Source: Geobacter sp.
GTDB lineage: Bacteria > Desulfobacterota > Desulfuromonadia > Geobacterales > Geobacteraceae
Assembly: GCA_003574885.1 (NCBI GenBank)
Contig: PJFC01000001.1
Span: 248,001 to 312,000 of the forward strand
Direction of reading: 5' to 3'
DNA: 64,000 nt
Shown here: in pieces, positions 33,545 to 53,250 of the stretch
How the letters are laid out: each line of letters starts with the position of its first letter
Position numbering within the stretch: the first letter of the stretch is position 1
The notes under the pieces: generated by a model
What the model was told of the DNA's origin: nothing
The model's input: only the letters and a program-made list of their open reading frames with translations
The model's database searches: none
Program-made: the position numbers and the translations under genes

Positions 33545-34678
33545 TTATGCCACAACCCGCGCAAGATCGGATATAAGGTCATCCGGGTCCTCCAGCCCTA
33601 TGGAGAGACGTACCAGTGTATCGCTGATCCCGCGTTCGGCACGGTCGGCAGGGGACATTGCCGCATGGGACATCCTGGCCGGATAGGAAAGTATGCTCTC
33701 AACGCCCCCAAGGCTGACGGCGAATGCAGCCAGCTCGACCCCCTCCAGCAACCGCCTGGTCAGCTCGAAGCTTTCCAGCTCGAAGGAGAGGACCGCCCCC
33801 GGCCCGTCGGCTTGGCCGCTGTGGACAGCATTGCCCGGATGTGTCGACAGTCCCGGATAATATACCCGTTTAACCTGTGGGCACCCGTCAAGGAAGGCCG
33901 CAACTTTCAGCGCGCTGCTCTGGCTCTCTTCCATCCGCACCTTGAGAGTCTTCAGTCCCCGCAGGGTCAGCCAGCAGTCCTGGGGGCCGAGTATTGCGCC
34001 GAAGGCGTTCTGGATGAAACCGATACGATGGGCCAGATCTTCGTCCTTCACCACGGCAAAACCGCAGACCACGTCGCTGTGACCGTTCAGGAACTTGGTG
34101 CCGCTGTGCATGACGATATCGCAGCCAAGCTCCAGGGGGCGCTGCAGGTACGGGGTCATGAAGGTATTGTCTACCAGGGCCAGCAGCCCACGGGAGCGGG
34201 CGATCGCTGCAGCACCCCGGATATCCGTGATTTTCAGAAGGGGATTGGAAGGAGTCTCCAGATAGATCGCCTTTGTCTCCGGCCGGATGGCAGCCTCTAT
34301 GGCTTCGAGACGGGTGGCGTCCACAAAGGTGACGCTGAGCCCCCACTGACCGAAAAGTTTGGTCAACACCCGGAATGCCCCGCCGTAGACGTCCTCGCAG
34401 ACTACCAGGTGGTCACCGGGTGCAAAGAGCATCAGGGTCGAGGAGATGGCCGCCATGCCGGAGCCGAAGGCAAACGCATGGGTACCCCCTTCGAGATCGG
34501 CAAGTGCCTCCTCCAGCGCCTCCCTGGTGGGATTGCCGGAGCGTGCGTAGTCGTATTTCCCGAACTGGTCCACCGACTTCTGGGCAAAGGTGGATGTCTG
34601 ATAGACCGGAATGGAGAGTGCTCCGGTTGCGGGATCGACGGCATGGCTGCCGTGAATGAGTCTCGTTGCGAATTTCAT
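33545..34678 (-). CDS. Cys/Met metabolism PLP enzyme (cystathionine gamma-synthase or beta-lyase), second copy
   Basis: PLP-dependent trans-sulfuration enzyme, 377 residues from ATG 34678 (GGAGG 6 nt upstream). The family block YDYARSGNPTREALEEALADLEGG and the PLP lysine site HSGTKFLNGHSDVVCG are intact, as is the C-terminal SLGGVESILSYP. These motifs do not separate MetB from MetC-type activity. The start lies on the stop of the preceding paralogue (TAACATG), so the two are coupled and both sit under the SAM riboswitch. Together they could take cysteine sulfur to homocysteine. Confidence 0.85.
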   Translation of the reverse strand: MKFATRLIHGSHAVDPATGALSIPVYQTSTFAQKSVDQFGKYDYARSGNPTREALEEALADLEGGTHAFAFGSGMAAISSTLMLFAPGDHLVVCEDVYGGAFRVLTKLFGQWGLSVTFVDATRLEAIEAAIRPETKAIYLETPSNPLLKITDIRGAAAIARSRGLLALVDNTFMTPYLQRPLELGCDIVMHSGTKFLNGHSDVVCGFAVVKDEDLAHRIGFIQNAFGAILGPQDCWLTLRGLKTLKVRMEESQSSALKVAAFLDGCPQVKRVYYPGLSTHPGNAVHSGQADGPGAVLSFELESFELTRRLLEGVELAAFAVSLGGVESILSYPARMSHAAMSPADRAERGISDTLVRLSIGLEDPDDLISDLARVVA

Positions 34679-34679
34679 G

Positions 34680-35822
34680 TTATGCCTCCGTGGTAAATGC
34701 CGATTCCAGATCGGCAATCAGATCGTTCACATCCTCAATTCCTACCGACAGTCGAAGCAACCGGTCGTTAATGCCAAGGGCGGCCCGTTTTGCCGGCTCG
34801 ATATCGGCATGAGTCTGTACGGCAGGAAAGGTGATCAGGGTTTCCACGCCTCCCAGACTTTCGGCAAAGGATATCACGTTGGTGCGCAGGAGCAAACGCT
34901 CCACCAGTTCCGGTCTGGTCACTTCGAAAGCGATCATCGCACCGAAGCCTTTCCCGTGCGTTTTCAGGAGCTCATGTCCCGGATGGTCGGGCAGGCCCGG
35001 GTAATAGACCTTCGTTACCAGCTCATTGGCCAGCAGCCAGCGGGCAATGGCCAGGGCGTTCTCCTGTTGGCGGTCCATGCGGACCGAAAGGGTTTTCATG
35101 CCGCGAATGGTAAGCCAGGAATCCTGGGGGCCGAGGACAGCGCCGGCGGCGTTCTGATGGAAATAGACCCGTTCCGCCAGTGCAGGATCCTTCACCGTCA
35201 CGAGGCCACACACCGTGTCGTTGTGCCCTGCCAGGTACTTGGTCCCGCTGTAGACGGCGATATCCGCACCCAGATCGAGCGGGCGGAGCAGATAGGGGGT
35301 GAGGAAGGTATTGTCCACGATACAGAGGATATCCTGTTGCCGGCAGAGCTTGGCCAGTGCGGCAACGTCGGCCACCTTGAGGAGCGGGTTTGTCAGGGAC
35401 TCCACAAAGAGGCCCTTAGTCTCGGGGCGGATGGCTGACGTGACCTGCACGATGTCACTTGTGTCCACATAGGTGAATTCCAGGCCGTACCGCTGGAAGA
35501 TCTGCTCGAAGAGGCGATAGGTGCCGCCATACAGGTCCTCGGTGACAATGAGATGATCCCCCTGTTTAAAGAGGAGGAGCAGGCTTGCGATGGCCGCCAT
35601 TCCGGAAGAATAGGCAAAGCCCCGGGATGCGCCATCAAGGCGTGCTATCCCCTCTTCCAGTGCCTGGCGGGTGGGGTTACCCGATCGGCTGTAGTCGTAG
35701 CCGGTGCTCTGTCCCAGGCCGGGATGCCGGAAGGTCGCTGTCTGATAGATCGGGACGGTCACCGCTCCGGTGCGTGTGTCCCATTCGAGTCCGATCTGTG
35801 CCGCTGCAGTTGCAATGTTCAT
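34680..35822 (-). CDS. Cys/Met metabolism PLP enzyme (cystathionine gamma-synthase or beta-lyase), first copy
   Basis: 380 residues, paralogous to the gene that follows it. Diagnostic blocks: YDYSRSGNPTRQALEEGIARLDG, PLP lysine in YSGTKYLAGHNDTVCG, and SLGGVETLITFP. GGAG precedes the ATG at 35822. It is the first gene behind an S-box riboswitch, which strongly supports a methionine or homocysteine biosynthetic role. Which of the two paralogues makes cystathionine and which cleaves it cannot be decided by eye. Confidence 0.87.
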   Translation of the reverse strand: MNIATAAAQIGLEWDTRTGAVTVPIYQTATFRHPGLGQSTGYDYSRSGNPTRQALEEGIARLDGASRGFAYSSGMAAIASLLLLFKQGDHLIVTEDLYGGTYRLFEQIFQRYGLEFTYVDTSDIVQVTSAIRPETKGLFVESLTNPLLKVADVAALAKLCRQQDILCIVDNTFLTPYLLRPLDLGADIAVYSGTKYLAGHNDTVCGLVTVKDPALAERVYFHQNAAGAVLGPQDSWLTIRGMKTLSVRMDRQQENALAIARWLLANELVTKVYYPGLPDHPGHELLKTHGKGFGAMIAFEVTRPELVERLLLRTNVISFAESLGGVETLITFPAVQTHADIEPAKRAALGINDRLLRLSVGIEDVNDLIADLESAFTTEA

Positions 35823-35871: not shown

Positions 35872-35900
35872 CTCTATCGTGGCGAAGGTTGTCCGCGCTC

Positions 35901-36004
35901 CCTTATCTTCCGAAACCGTGCGGCTTCGCAGGAATTGGCACCTTCCCTTGCGGGAGGTTGCCGCGACGTCGTAGGGCCTGTCCCTCGGTCGCTCTTGATA
36001 AGAA
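35901..36004 (-). ncRNA. SAM-I (S-box) riboswitch aptamer
   Basis: Read on the minus strand, all conserved S-box blocks appear in order: P1 strand CTTATC with AAGAG (36002-35992), GAGGGACAGGCCC (35986-35974), GCGGCAACC (35964-35956), GGTGCCAATTCCTGC (35942-35928), and the closing P1 strand GATAAGG (35907-35901). SAM binding is expected to favour the downstream terminator and switch off the two trans-sulfuration genes. I rely on these consensus blocks; no covariance search was possible. Confidence 0.93.
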
Positions 36005-47367: not shown

Positions 47368-47385
47368 CATGTAAGGAGGTTGACT

Positions 47386-47637
47386 ATGCGAATCCGGAAA
47401 AAAATCCTTGATTTCGAGTACGAGGAAGTGCTCGATGCCAGGACCCGCGAGCTGATTCGGGTCGGCTGTGCCGTCGCCGTCGGTTGCCCCACCTGACTGA
47501 AAAAACACTTCGCGGGCGCGAAGGAAGCGGGAGCAACGGAAGCAGAACTGAAAGAAGCCTTGGCTTACGGAATGATCGCCCCCTCGGGCCGAGCGAAGAA
47601 TTTCGTGATGAGCCTCTCGGACGATCTCGACCTGTAG
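47386..47637 (+). CDS. AhpD-like (carboxymuconolactone decarboxylase family) selenoprotein, UGA recoded at codon 37
   Basis: Small alpha-helical redox protein of the AhpD/CMD fold, 83 residues when the in-frame TGA at 47494-47496 is read as selenocysteine. The frame is open on both sides and ends at TAG 47635. The redox motif reads VAVGCPTU followed by LKKHF; relatives of this family have a CPxC pair followed by a similar helix, so U37 replaces the second cysteine. AAGGAGG lies 6 nt before the ATG, and a SECIS-like hairpin begins 11 bases after the TGA. The helix EAGATEAELKEALAYGMI after the motif is family-typical. Ordinary gene calling would stop at codon 36. Role probably thiol or peroxide reduction; partner unknown. 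Confidence 0.85.
47494..47523 (+). promoter_or_regulatory. UGA codon with bacterial SECIS-like hairpin
   Basis: Bases 47508-47523 form CTTCGC-GGGC-GCGAAG, a perfect 6-bp stem with a four-base loop starting GG. The loop begins 17 nt after the UGA. This fits the published general rule for bacterial SECIS elements (apical loop about 16-37 nt from UGA, G in the first two loop positions). The hairpin is inside the coding sequence, as expected for SelB-dependent recoding. Confidence 0.75.
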
Positions 47638-47650
47638 TCCTCCATTAAAA

Positions 47651-47672
47651 GGGGCACGGCGTGACGTGCCCC
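47651..47672 (+). terminator. Hairpin after the selenoprotein gene
   Basis: Stem GGGGCACG/CGTGCCCC with a 6-nt loop, 13 bases after the stop codon. No T-run follows. It overlaps a possible GTG start (47661) of the MATE gene and so argues for a later start there. Confidence 0.5.
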
Positions 47673-47696: not shown

Positions 47697-49058
47697 ATGT
47701 CCCTACGCAGCATCATTTCAAACTTGGCCGGCGACAACTCCGGGAGAAGGATTTCTATCCGGCGGAGGGTTTTCAACCTTTCCCTGCCGGTCCTTCTGTC
47801 ATCCCTCTTCCAGCGGCTTGTCTCCATCGTCGACATCTTTCTGGTCGGTGGACTCGGGGCGTCAGCCATTGCCGCCGCCGGTCTCGGCCAGCTTCTCGTC
47901 TTCGTGGTCATGACCGTTTTCTGGGGGCTGGCGACCGGTGCTACCGTGGTGATCGCCCATCTCTGGGGGGGAGGTCAGCATCCGGAAGCCCGCCGAGCTG
48001 CATTTTCCGCCTGCCTCGTCTGCCTCGTCATGACCGTCGTCGCGTCGCTCCTTGGCTATCTGCTGGGGGACGATCTGGCGCACTTTCTTGGTGCCCGGGA
48101 TGACGTTCTCCGTCTCGCCACGGGGTACATCCGGCTGGTCTTTCTCTATCTCGTCTTCACCACCGGCCTCAACATCCTGTCTGCCATCATGCAGGGCATC
48201 GGCAACACCCGCACCCCGATGGAAGGGGTGATTCTGGTCAACATCCTCCACGTGGTACTCGCCTACCCCCTCATCTATGGCAAGTTCGGCCTCCCGGCAT
48301 TTGGTGTAACCGGCGCAGCTTACGCCATCAATGCCTCGGAGTTCTTTGGCTGCCTCTACCTGCTGGTGCAGGCACTTCGCAAGGGATACATCACGATCGG
48401 CCCCCTTGACCGTGAGCAGTTCCGCCGCATCTGGCAGGTCGGCTATCCGGTCGCTCTTGAACGGGTGGCCCAGCAGTCAGGACAGCTCTTCTACTCCAAG
48501 TTTATCATAGGCTACGGAACGGCCGCCTATGCCGCCCATCAGATCGGCCTCTCCATCGAATCCCTGTCCTTCATGCCGGGGGCGGGAATGGGTATCGCCG
48601 CCTCCACCCTCATGGGGCAGGCCCTCGGCGCCCGCAAGATCAAGCGCGCTCGACTGAGCCACCAGGAAGCCCTTCGCCTGGCCGTGCTCGTCATGACTGC
48701 GATGGCGCTGATTTTCCTCTTTTTCCCCAGCCAGCTCATCGGCTTTTTCACCCACGATCCGGAAGTCATCGACAAGGGGTGCATCTTCCTCCGGCTGGTC
48801 GCCTTCGCCCAGATCCCCCTCGCCCTCTCTTTCGTCTATGCCGGCAGCCTGCGGGGGACCGGAGATACCCACTACGTCTTTCTCGTCACCCTAGTAGCCA
48901 TGTGGGGGATCCGCGTGTTCCTCTCCTACGTCGCCGCCGAACTCCTCCATCTTTCCCTCGCCTTCGTCTGGGGGGTATTCCTCCTGGACTGGTTCTTCCG
49001 CGCCGGCGCTTTCGCCTGGCGGTATCATAGGCGGGATCTGCACCAGATCGTATTCTGA
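47697..49058 (+). CDS. MATE-family efflux transporter
   Basis: Inner-membrane Na+ or H+ driven exporter of the multidrug and toxin extrusion family; about 453 residues and 12 helices in two repeats. Typical elements: LSLPVLLSSLFQRLVSIVDIFLVGGLG, GTAAYAAHQIGLSIESLSFMPG and GIAASTLMGQALGA. I use ATG 47697; a GTG at 47661 would add 12 residues but lies in the hairpin loop of the preceding terminator. Neither start has a good ribosome site. Substrate unknown. Confidence 0.9.
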   Translation: MSLRSIISNLAGDNSGRRISIRRRVFNLSLPVLLSSLFQRLVSIVDIFLVGGLGASAIAAAGLGQLLVFVVMTVFWGLATGATVVIAHLWGGGQHPEARRAAFSACLVCLVMTVVASLLGYLLGDDLAHFLGARDDVLRLATGYIRLVFLYLVFTTGLNILSAIMQGIGNTRTPMEGVILVNILHVVLAYPLIYGKFGLPAFGVTGAAYAINASEFFGCLYLLVQALRKGYITIGPLDREQFRRIWQVGYPVALERVAQQSGQLFYSKFIIGYGTAAYAAHQIGLSIESLSFMPGAGMGIAASTLMGQALGARKIKRARLSHQEALRLAVLVMTAMALIFLFFPSQLIGFFTHDPEVIDKGCIFLRLVAFAQIPLALSFVYAGSLRGTGDTHYVFLVTLVAMWGIRVFLSYVAAELLHLSLAFVWGVFLLDWFFRAGAFAWRYHRRDLHQIVF

Positions 49059-52245: not shown

Positions 52246-53250
52246 ATGCAGCGTAAAGCCCTCGCCCTTCTCTCCGGAGGACTCGACTCCACCCTTGCCG
52301 TCAAGGTCATGCTTGAACAGGGCATTGCCGTCGAAGCCCTCAACTTCACCTCCCCCTTCTGCACCTGCACCGGCAAGAACGCCGGCTGCAAATCCGAAGC
52401 CGTCCGGGTAGCCGAAGAATTCGGCATCCCCATCAAGGTCCTCCACAAGGGGGCCGAGTACCTGGAGATCATCCGCAATCCCCGCCACGGCTACGGCAAG
52501 GGGATGAACCCCTGCATCGACTGCCGTATCTACCTGCTCAGGAAGGCCAGGGAATACATGGCAACCTGCGGCGCCGATTTTGTCATCACCGGCGAGGTCC
52601 TGGGTCAGCGCCCCATGAGCCAGCGCCGCGACACCCTGCGAGTCATTGAGCGGGAAAGCGGCCTGGAGGGCCTGCTTCTGCGCCCTCTCTCCGCCAAACA
52701 TTTTTCACCGACCATACCGGAGCAGGAGGGATGGGTGGACCGGGAAAAGCTCCTCGCCATCCAGGGACGCTCCCGCAAGGAACAGATGCAGCTGGCCGAC
52801 GACCTTGACGTGAAGAATTACCCTTGCCCGGCCGGGGGCTGCCTTCTGACCGAGGTCTCCTTCGTTTCAAAGGTGAGGGACGTTTTCGACCACTCAGACC
52901 AGGTCAACCTTCGCGACTGCAGGCTTCTCAAGATCGGACGTCATTTCCGCATAGGACCGCTGACCAAGGTGCTGATCGGCCGCAACGAGGCTGATAACCA
53001 GCTGCTTGAAGGGGCTCTGCAGGAGGGAGAGGTGGCGCTCCGCTGGAACGAGGGGGGAAGTCCCCTCGGCGTCGTGACGGGAGTGGTGGAAGAGGACCTG
53101 GTCCAGACCGCCGCCAGGATACTCCTCCGGTACACAAAGGCGGAACCGTCACGTGACTGCATGATAAAACTGCTGCGCAACGGTGGAGAAGAGCTGTTGC
53201 AGATATCTAATGACTTCTCCGAGGCCGAGATAGAAGGGTTCCGCATCTGA
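52246..53250 (+). CDS. PP-loop ATPase of the tRNA-thiolation type (MnmA/ThiI-like)
   Basis: 334 residues. The N-terminus has an adenylating PP-loop ALLSGGLDSTLAVKVM. Conserved cysteines follow in FCTCTGKNAGC, MNPCIDCRIYLL, and YPCPAGGCLLTE, a pattern seen in MnmA/ThiI-like tRNA sulfur enzymes. It lacks the full MnmA C-terminus, and the exact tRNA position cannot be assigned. AGGAGA precedes the ATG. Its 3' end is followed by a strong shared terminator with mtgA. Confidence 0.75.
   Translation: MQRKALALLSGGLDSTLAVKVMLEQGIAVEALNFTSPFCTCTGKNAGCKSEAVRVAEEFGIPIKVLHKGAEYLEIIRNPRHGYGKGMNPCIDCRIYLLRKAREYMATCGADFVITGEVLGQRPMSQRRDTLRVIERESGLEGLLLRPLSAKHFSPTIPEQEGWVDREKLLAIQGRSRKEQMQLADDLDVKNYPCPAGGCLLTEVSFVSKVRDVFDHSDQVNLRDCRLLKIGRHFRIGPLTKVLIGRNEADNQLLEGALQEGEVALRWNEGGSPLGVVTGVVEEDLVQTAARILLRYTKAEPSRDCMIKLLRNGGEELLQISNDFSEAEIEGFRI

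Follow-up and report, generated by a model that had tools for sequence, protein, structure and literature searches.

The locus at 47386-47637 of the window (the whole stretch of DNA analysed here, 64,000 nucleotides from Geobacter sp.) raises the question of whether a reading frame interrupted by a single TGA gives rise to one continuous protein and, if so, how that codon is read and what the product does. Taken together, homology, the conservation of the UGA, the constraint on a SECIS hairpin, the presence of selA, selB, selC and selD in the genome and the predicted fold make it almost certain that 47386-47637 encodes a selenoprotein of the AhpD/CMD fold, orthologous to the GSU3128 ("distant AhpD homolog") family. 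The frame and its signals are as follows:

47372..47379, plus strand: Shine-Dalgarno TAAGGAGG, 6 nt before the ATG at 47386, by direct reading
47386..47637, plus strand: predicted selenoprotein gene of the GSU3128 family (NF041047); product of 83 aa, Sec being residue 37; stop codon TAG at 47635-47637
47494..47496, plus strand: in-frame TGA at codon 37, predicted to specify selenocysteine as the second residue of the CxxU pair

The initial annotation of this DNA had already described the ATG at 47386, the single in-frame TGA at 47494-47496, the TAG at 47635-47637 and the Shine-Dalgarno, all of which were confirmed by direct reading. The translation comprises 83 residues (MRIRKKILDFEYEEVLDARTRELIRVGCAVAVGCPTULKKHFAGAKEAGATEAELKEALAYGMIAPSGRAKNFVMSLSDDLDL), and its CxxU motif is C34-P-T-U37. 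A purine-rich site of the GGAG/GGGG type precedes the start in most orthologues, and a consensus promoter scan upstream of the gene gave nothing useful.

With U read as C, the NCBIfam model NF041047 ("GSU3128 family (seleno)protein") matches residues 1-82 of 83 with 159 bits, the curated cut-off being 110 bits, and the protein also matches Pfam CMD (PF02627) with 54 bits and TIGR00778 with 41 bits. As the CMD and NF041047 scores indicate, homology spanning the TGA is far beyond chance, and the membership in the CMD/AhpD families that had been proposed from the letters alone holds. The gene had also been called unannotatable by default, which is correct in that gene callers would end the frame at the TGA at 47494, but not in that NF041047 was made for this very (seleno)protein; since this curated NCBI model exists, current NCBI annotation is able to name the gene. 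The class, as had been stated, is not new: this family has been catalogued since 2006, when Zhang et al. listed the "distant AhpD homolog" among the selenoproteins of Geobacter sulfurreducens and G. uraniumreducens (PMC1794560), and a 2026 catalogue lists the distant AhpD homolog with CxxU and NF041047 (PMC13188914).

Class and family are known, and the gene is an ordinary member of the GSU3128 family, which it resembles in the full-length match (residues 1-82), the position of U in CxxU and the bacterial group; there is no difference of substance, the species being another one. A literature search for "GSU3128" found nothing. Related AhpD-type domains, with 36-39 bits to the window protein, occur in NF041537 (arsenite methyltransferase/AhpD domain selenoprotein), which is likewise catalogued with a CxxU motif, and in MduS (NF045649). 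By contrast with the window protein, which stands alone at 83 residues and falls far below their cut-offs, both of these are methyltransferase-domain fusions. As a type of system, the gene adds nothing new; its interest is that naive gene calling truncates a short gene for what is almost certainly a conserved selenoprotein, its SECIS being clean, and that the annotation is corrected.

The AlphaFold2 model of the protein (pLDDT 95.5) has a short N-terminal strand pair and three helices, and this predicted fold matches those of solved AhpD-like proteins. The best solved matches in Foldseek were the CMD/AhpD-like 3bey (O27018; 42% identity over 65 columns) and 7y4r (RclX), with probability 1.00 each, and M. 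tuberculosis AhpD and PA0269 were found further down the list. These four Cys-type CMD proteins share with the window protein the helical core and the spacing of Glu/Cys/(Cys or Sec)/His, but carry Cys where it would carry Sec; in addition, M. tuberculosis AhpD has roughly double the length and one more relay residue, His132. Glu22, Cys34, Sec37 and His41 are invariant in the 38 aligned relatives, and their spacing is equal to that of their counterparts in PA0269 (Glu36/Cys48/Cys51/His55) and AhpD (Glu118/Cys130/Cys133/His137) (PMC3141380). A fifth relay position, occupied by His132 in AhpD and Tyr50 in PA0269, is said to be not absolutely conserved (PMC3141380) and is Thr, Asp or another residue in the window family; as this residue is not kept, peroxidase activity is not to be assumed.

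In the product, Cys34 and Sec37 would form a Cys-x-x-Sec redox pair that cycles between reduced and selenenylsulfide states, while Glu22 and His41 occupy the proton-relay positions of AhpD. The protein is probably a thiol/selenol oxidoreductase or peroxidase. A functional variant of this explanation, which leaves the selenoprotein identity unchanged, is that its main role is to serve a partner as dithiol-type adaptor or reductase, rather than to reduce peroxide, and that it is possibly tied to MATE export. AhpD reportedly acts as an adaptor of AhpC (PMC3141380), and the lack of conservation of the fifth relay residue favours this variant, as does the arrangement of the genes downstream, where two features were found:

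47651..47672, plus strand: intergenic hairpin GGGGCACG-GCGTGA-CGTGCCCC, between the selenoprotein and MATE genes, by direct reading
47697..49058, plus strand: MATE family efflux transporter gene, 59 nt downstream of the selenoprotein gene (TIGR00797, 283 bits)

A MATE gene is kept downstream, at 14-260 nt, in 28 of the 30 orthologous loci of families f1 (the window's own) and f3, whereas the upstream genes are shuffled and differ between genera. By contrast, the MATE neighbour is absent from all 8 loci of family f4 (f3 and f4 being other families compared) and from the other class members examined, so that the selenoprotein would not depend on MATE everywhere. The adjacency suggests co-expression in one lineage and is not proof of shared function. 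An adaptor or reductase role is one that we entertain only tentatively, while the more specific proposal of a functional pairing between selenoprotein and MATE transporter in Geobacteraceae and a related family, in which the selenium-dependent redox enzyme would process or protect the cargo or the transporter, seems doubtful. A literature search combining the selenoprotein, the MATE family and Geobacter found no report of such a link, and the literature on the GSU3128 family yielded no known substrate; the conserved MATE neighbour offers a concrete starting point for finding one. The hairpin between the two genes is GC-rich with 8 bp, has no T run after it and does not figure among the listed terminators; it may serve as an attenuator or as a processing site, or have no role at all.

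As for the AhpD/CMD-fold selenoprotein itself, the orthologue search covered 58 genomes (its own and those of relatives), 38 of which have a full-length orthologue with 70-99% identity, and exactly one TGA, at codon 37, is present in all 38 (its own genome and 37 relatives). Likewise, each of the 16 matches above the family cut-off in a phylum-wide sample of 395 genomes has one TGA, and neither in these nor in the 38 orthologues was a sense codon found at that position, the Cys form being unseen among them. Distant CMD proteins of other phyla or classes have a sense codon there, nearly always Cys, and it is in these distant homologues that U37 aligns with the second Cys of the CxxC of AhpD/CMD, as had been anticipated. 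The objections that the initial annotation had raised against its own proposal do not hold, as no orthologue has a Cys codon at this position and a sequencing error is excluded by 38 independent genomes.

Insertion of selenocysteine at this codon would also require a SECIS element, for which there is a candidate shortly after the UGA:

47508..47523, plus strand: putative bacterial SECIS apical hairpin, with stem CUUCGC (47508-47513)/GCGAAG (47518-47523) and loop GGGC (47514-47517)

This hairpin had been placed 17 nt after the UGA, which is right for the beginning of the apical loop, but not for the stem itself, which begins at 11 nt. According to published rules for bacterial SECIS, the apical loop has 3-9 nt with G in the first two loop positions, the upper stem has 4-16 bp, the distance from the UGA to the loop is 16-37 nt and the MFE is at most -7.5 kcal/mol (PMC13188914). 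The window hairpin fits them, with a loop of 4 nt (GGGC), a stem of 6 bp, a UGA-loop distance of 17 nt and an MFE of -10.3 kcal/mol. When compared with shuffles, the folding energy of the single sequence is unremarkable (z = -0.6 to -1.2) and, as its significance is weak, we relied on comparative tests across species.

The mean silent-site heterozygosity is 0.12 in codons 41-43, 45 and 46, versus 0.46 in the other 56 codons; the constraint on silent sites under the stem and loop is significant by permutation (p = 3e-5), and no other run of five codons in this gene is as constrained as the five informative ones under the hairpin. In an analysis of 50 sequences, 99.7% of pair cells were paired, versus 40-64% when slid. 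Changes on both sides are found at three stem pairs and are compensatory, preserving the stem; for instance, in orthologue L123 a U-A pair is swapped for C-G through the change of Phe42 to Leu plus that of Lys46 to Arg. Alignment columns 24 and 27, which form the loop-closing pair, covary (GC, AU, CG, UG), which agrees with the N1-N2 pair in the published SECIS model. In one orthologue, L056 (G040), an 8-bp stem in a shifted register (GCAGCCUU/AAGGCUGC) takes the place of the usual one; its loop, GGCA, still starts with GG, and the amino acids have changed accordingly. Because of this shift, L056 was left out of alignment A5. In L052 and L057, two of the orthologues, neither of the first two loop nucleotides is G. 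On the whole, the comparative evidence for the putative SECIS is decisive. During translation, SelB with Sec-tRNA(UCA) would bind the hairpin at 47508-47523, and selenocysteine would thereby be put in at UGA codon 37.

All four selenocysteine genes that had been proposed as a check are present in the genome: selC (tRNA-Sec, 74.7 bits, anticodon tca (UCA)), selB (369 bits over the frame), selA (617 bits) and selD (370 bits). The last of these has one in-frame TGA (L049, G000:C1:974792-975715), and SelD of this genome is likely itself a selenoprotein. Of the 58 genomes, 53 gave a match to tRNA-Sec that exceeds the family threshold. It is very improbable that the UGA instead specifies one of the ordinary amino acids (Trp or Cys) through a code change or suppression. 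The frame is indeed open under TGA=W or TGA=C, but the SECIS constraint sits exactly where SelB needs it, and a code change was rejected because several orthologues terminate this same gene with TGA and the genome has the Sec-specific tRNA(UCA) together with SelA, SelB and SelD. Finally, it is scarcely credible that the TGA is a true stop or a sequencing error and the gene a pseudogene, truncated at 36 codons, of an AhpD-like protein with Cys. Gene callers would end the frame at the TGA, and one genome alone would not suffice to exclude this reading, but it was rejected, since 38 of 38 orthologues from independent genomes of many genera keep the TGA, their conserved frames are intact before and after it, conserved columns run on well beyond it and the silent sites of the SECIS are frozen.

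Some related genes were observed in the course of these comparisons. In the phylum-wide sample of 395 genomes, five sister proteins below the family cut-off have one TGA each; this sister group (L132, L133, L134, L135 and L136) has CxxU with TGA and a similar hairpin and, by eye, L132, L135 and L136 adjoin a MobA-like gene and L133 and L134 adjoin molybdate/tungstate-type ABC transporter genes. Another small AhpD-domain frame with an in-frame TGA at CxxU, without the CUUCGC/GCGAAG hairpin, was seen in two genomes (L061 and L062; G002 and G008). At G017:C38:120021-120375 and G008:C1:1783473-1785348, in two relatives, a CMD protein gene with no in-frame TGA lies close to the tRNA-Sec gene.

Within the window, an Rfam scan found no RNA family at the selenoprotein locus, its sole match being elsewhere, a SAM riboswitch (92.8 bits) at 35900-36004 on the minus strand, upstream of two genes at 33545-35822 that look like PLP-dependent enzymes of Cys/Met metabolism. 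At 52246-53250 there is a ThiI/MnmA-like protein, below all family cut-offs, which is possibly an uncharacterised tRNA thiolation relative.
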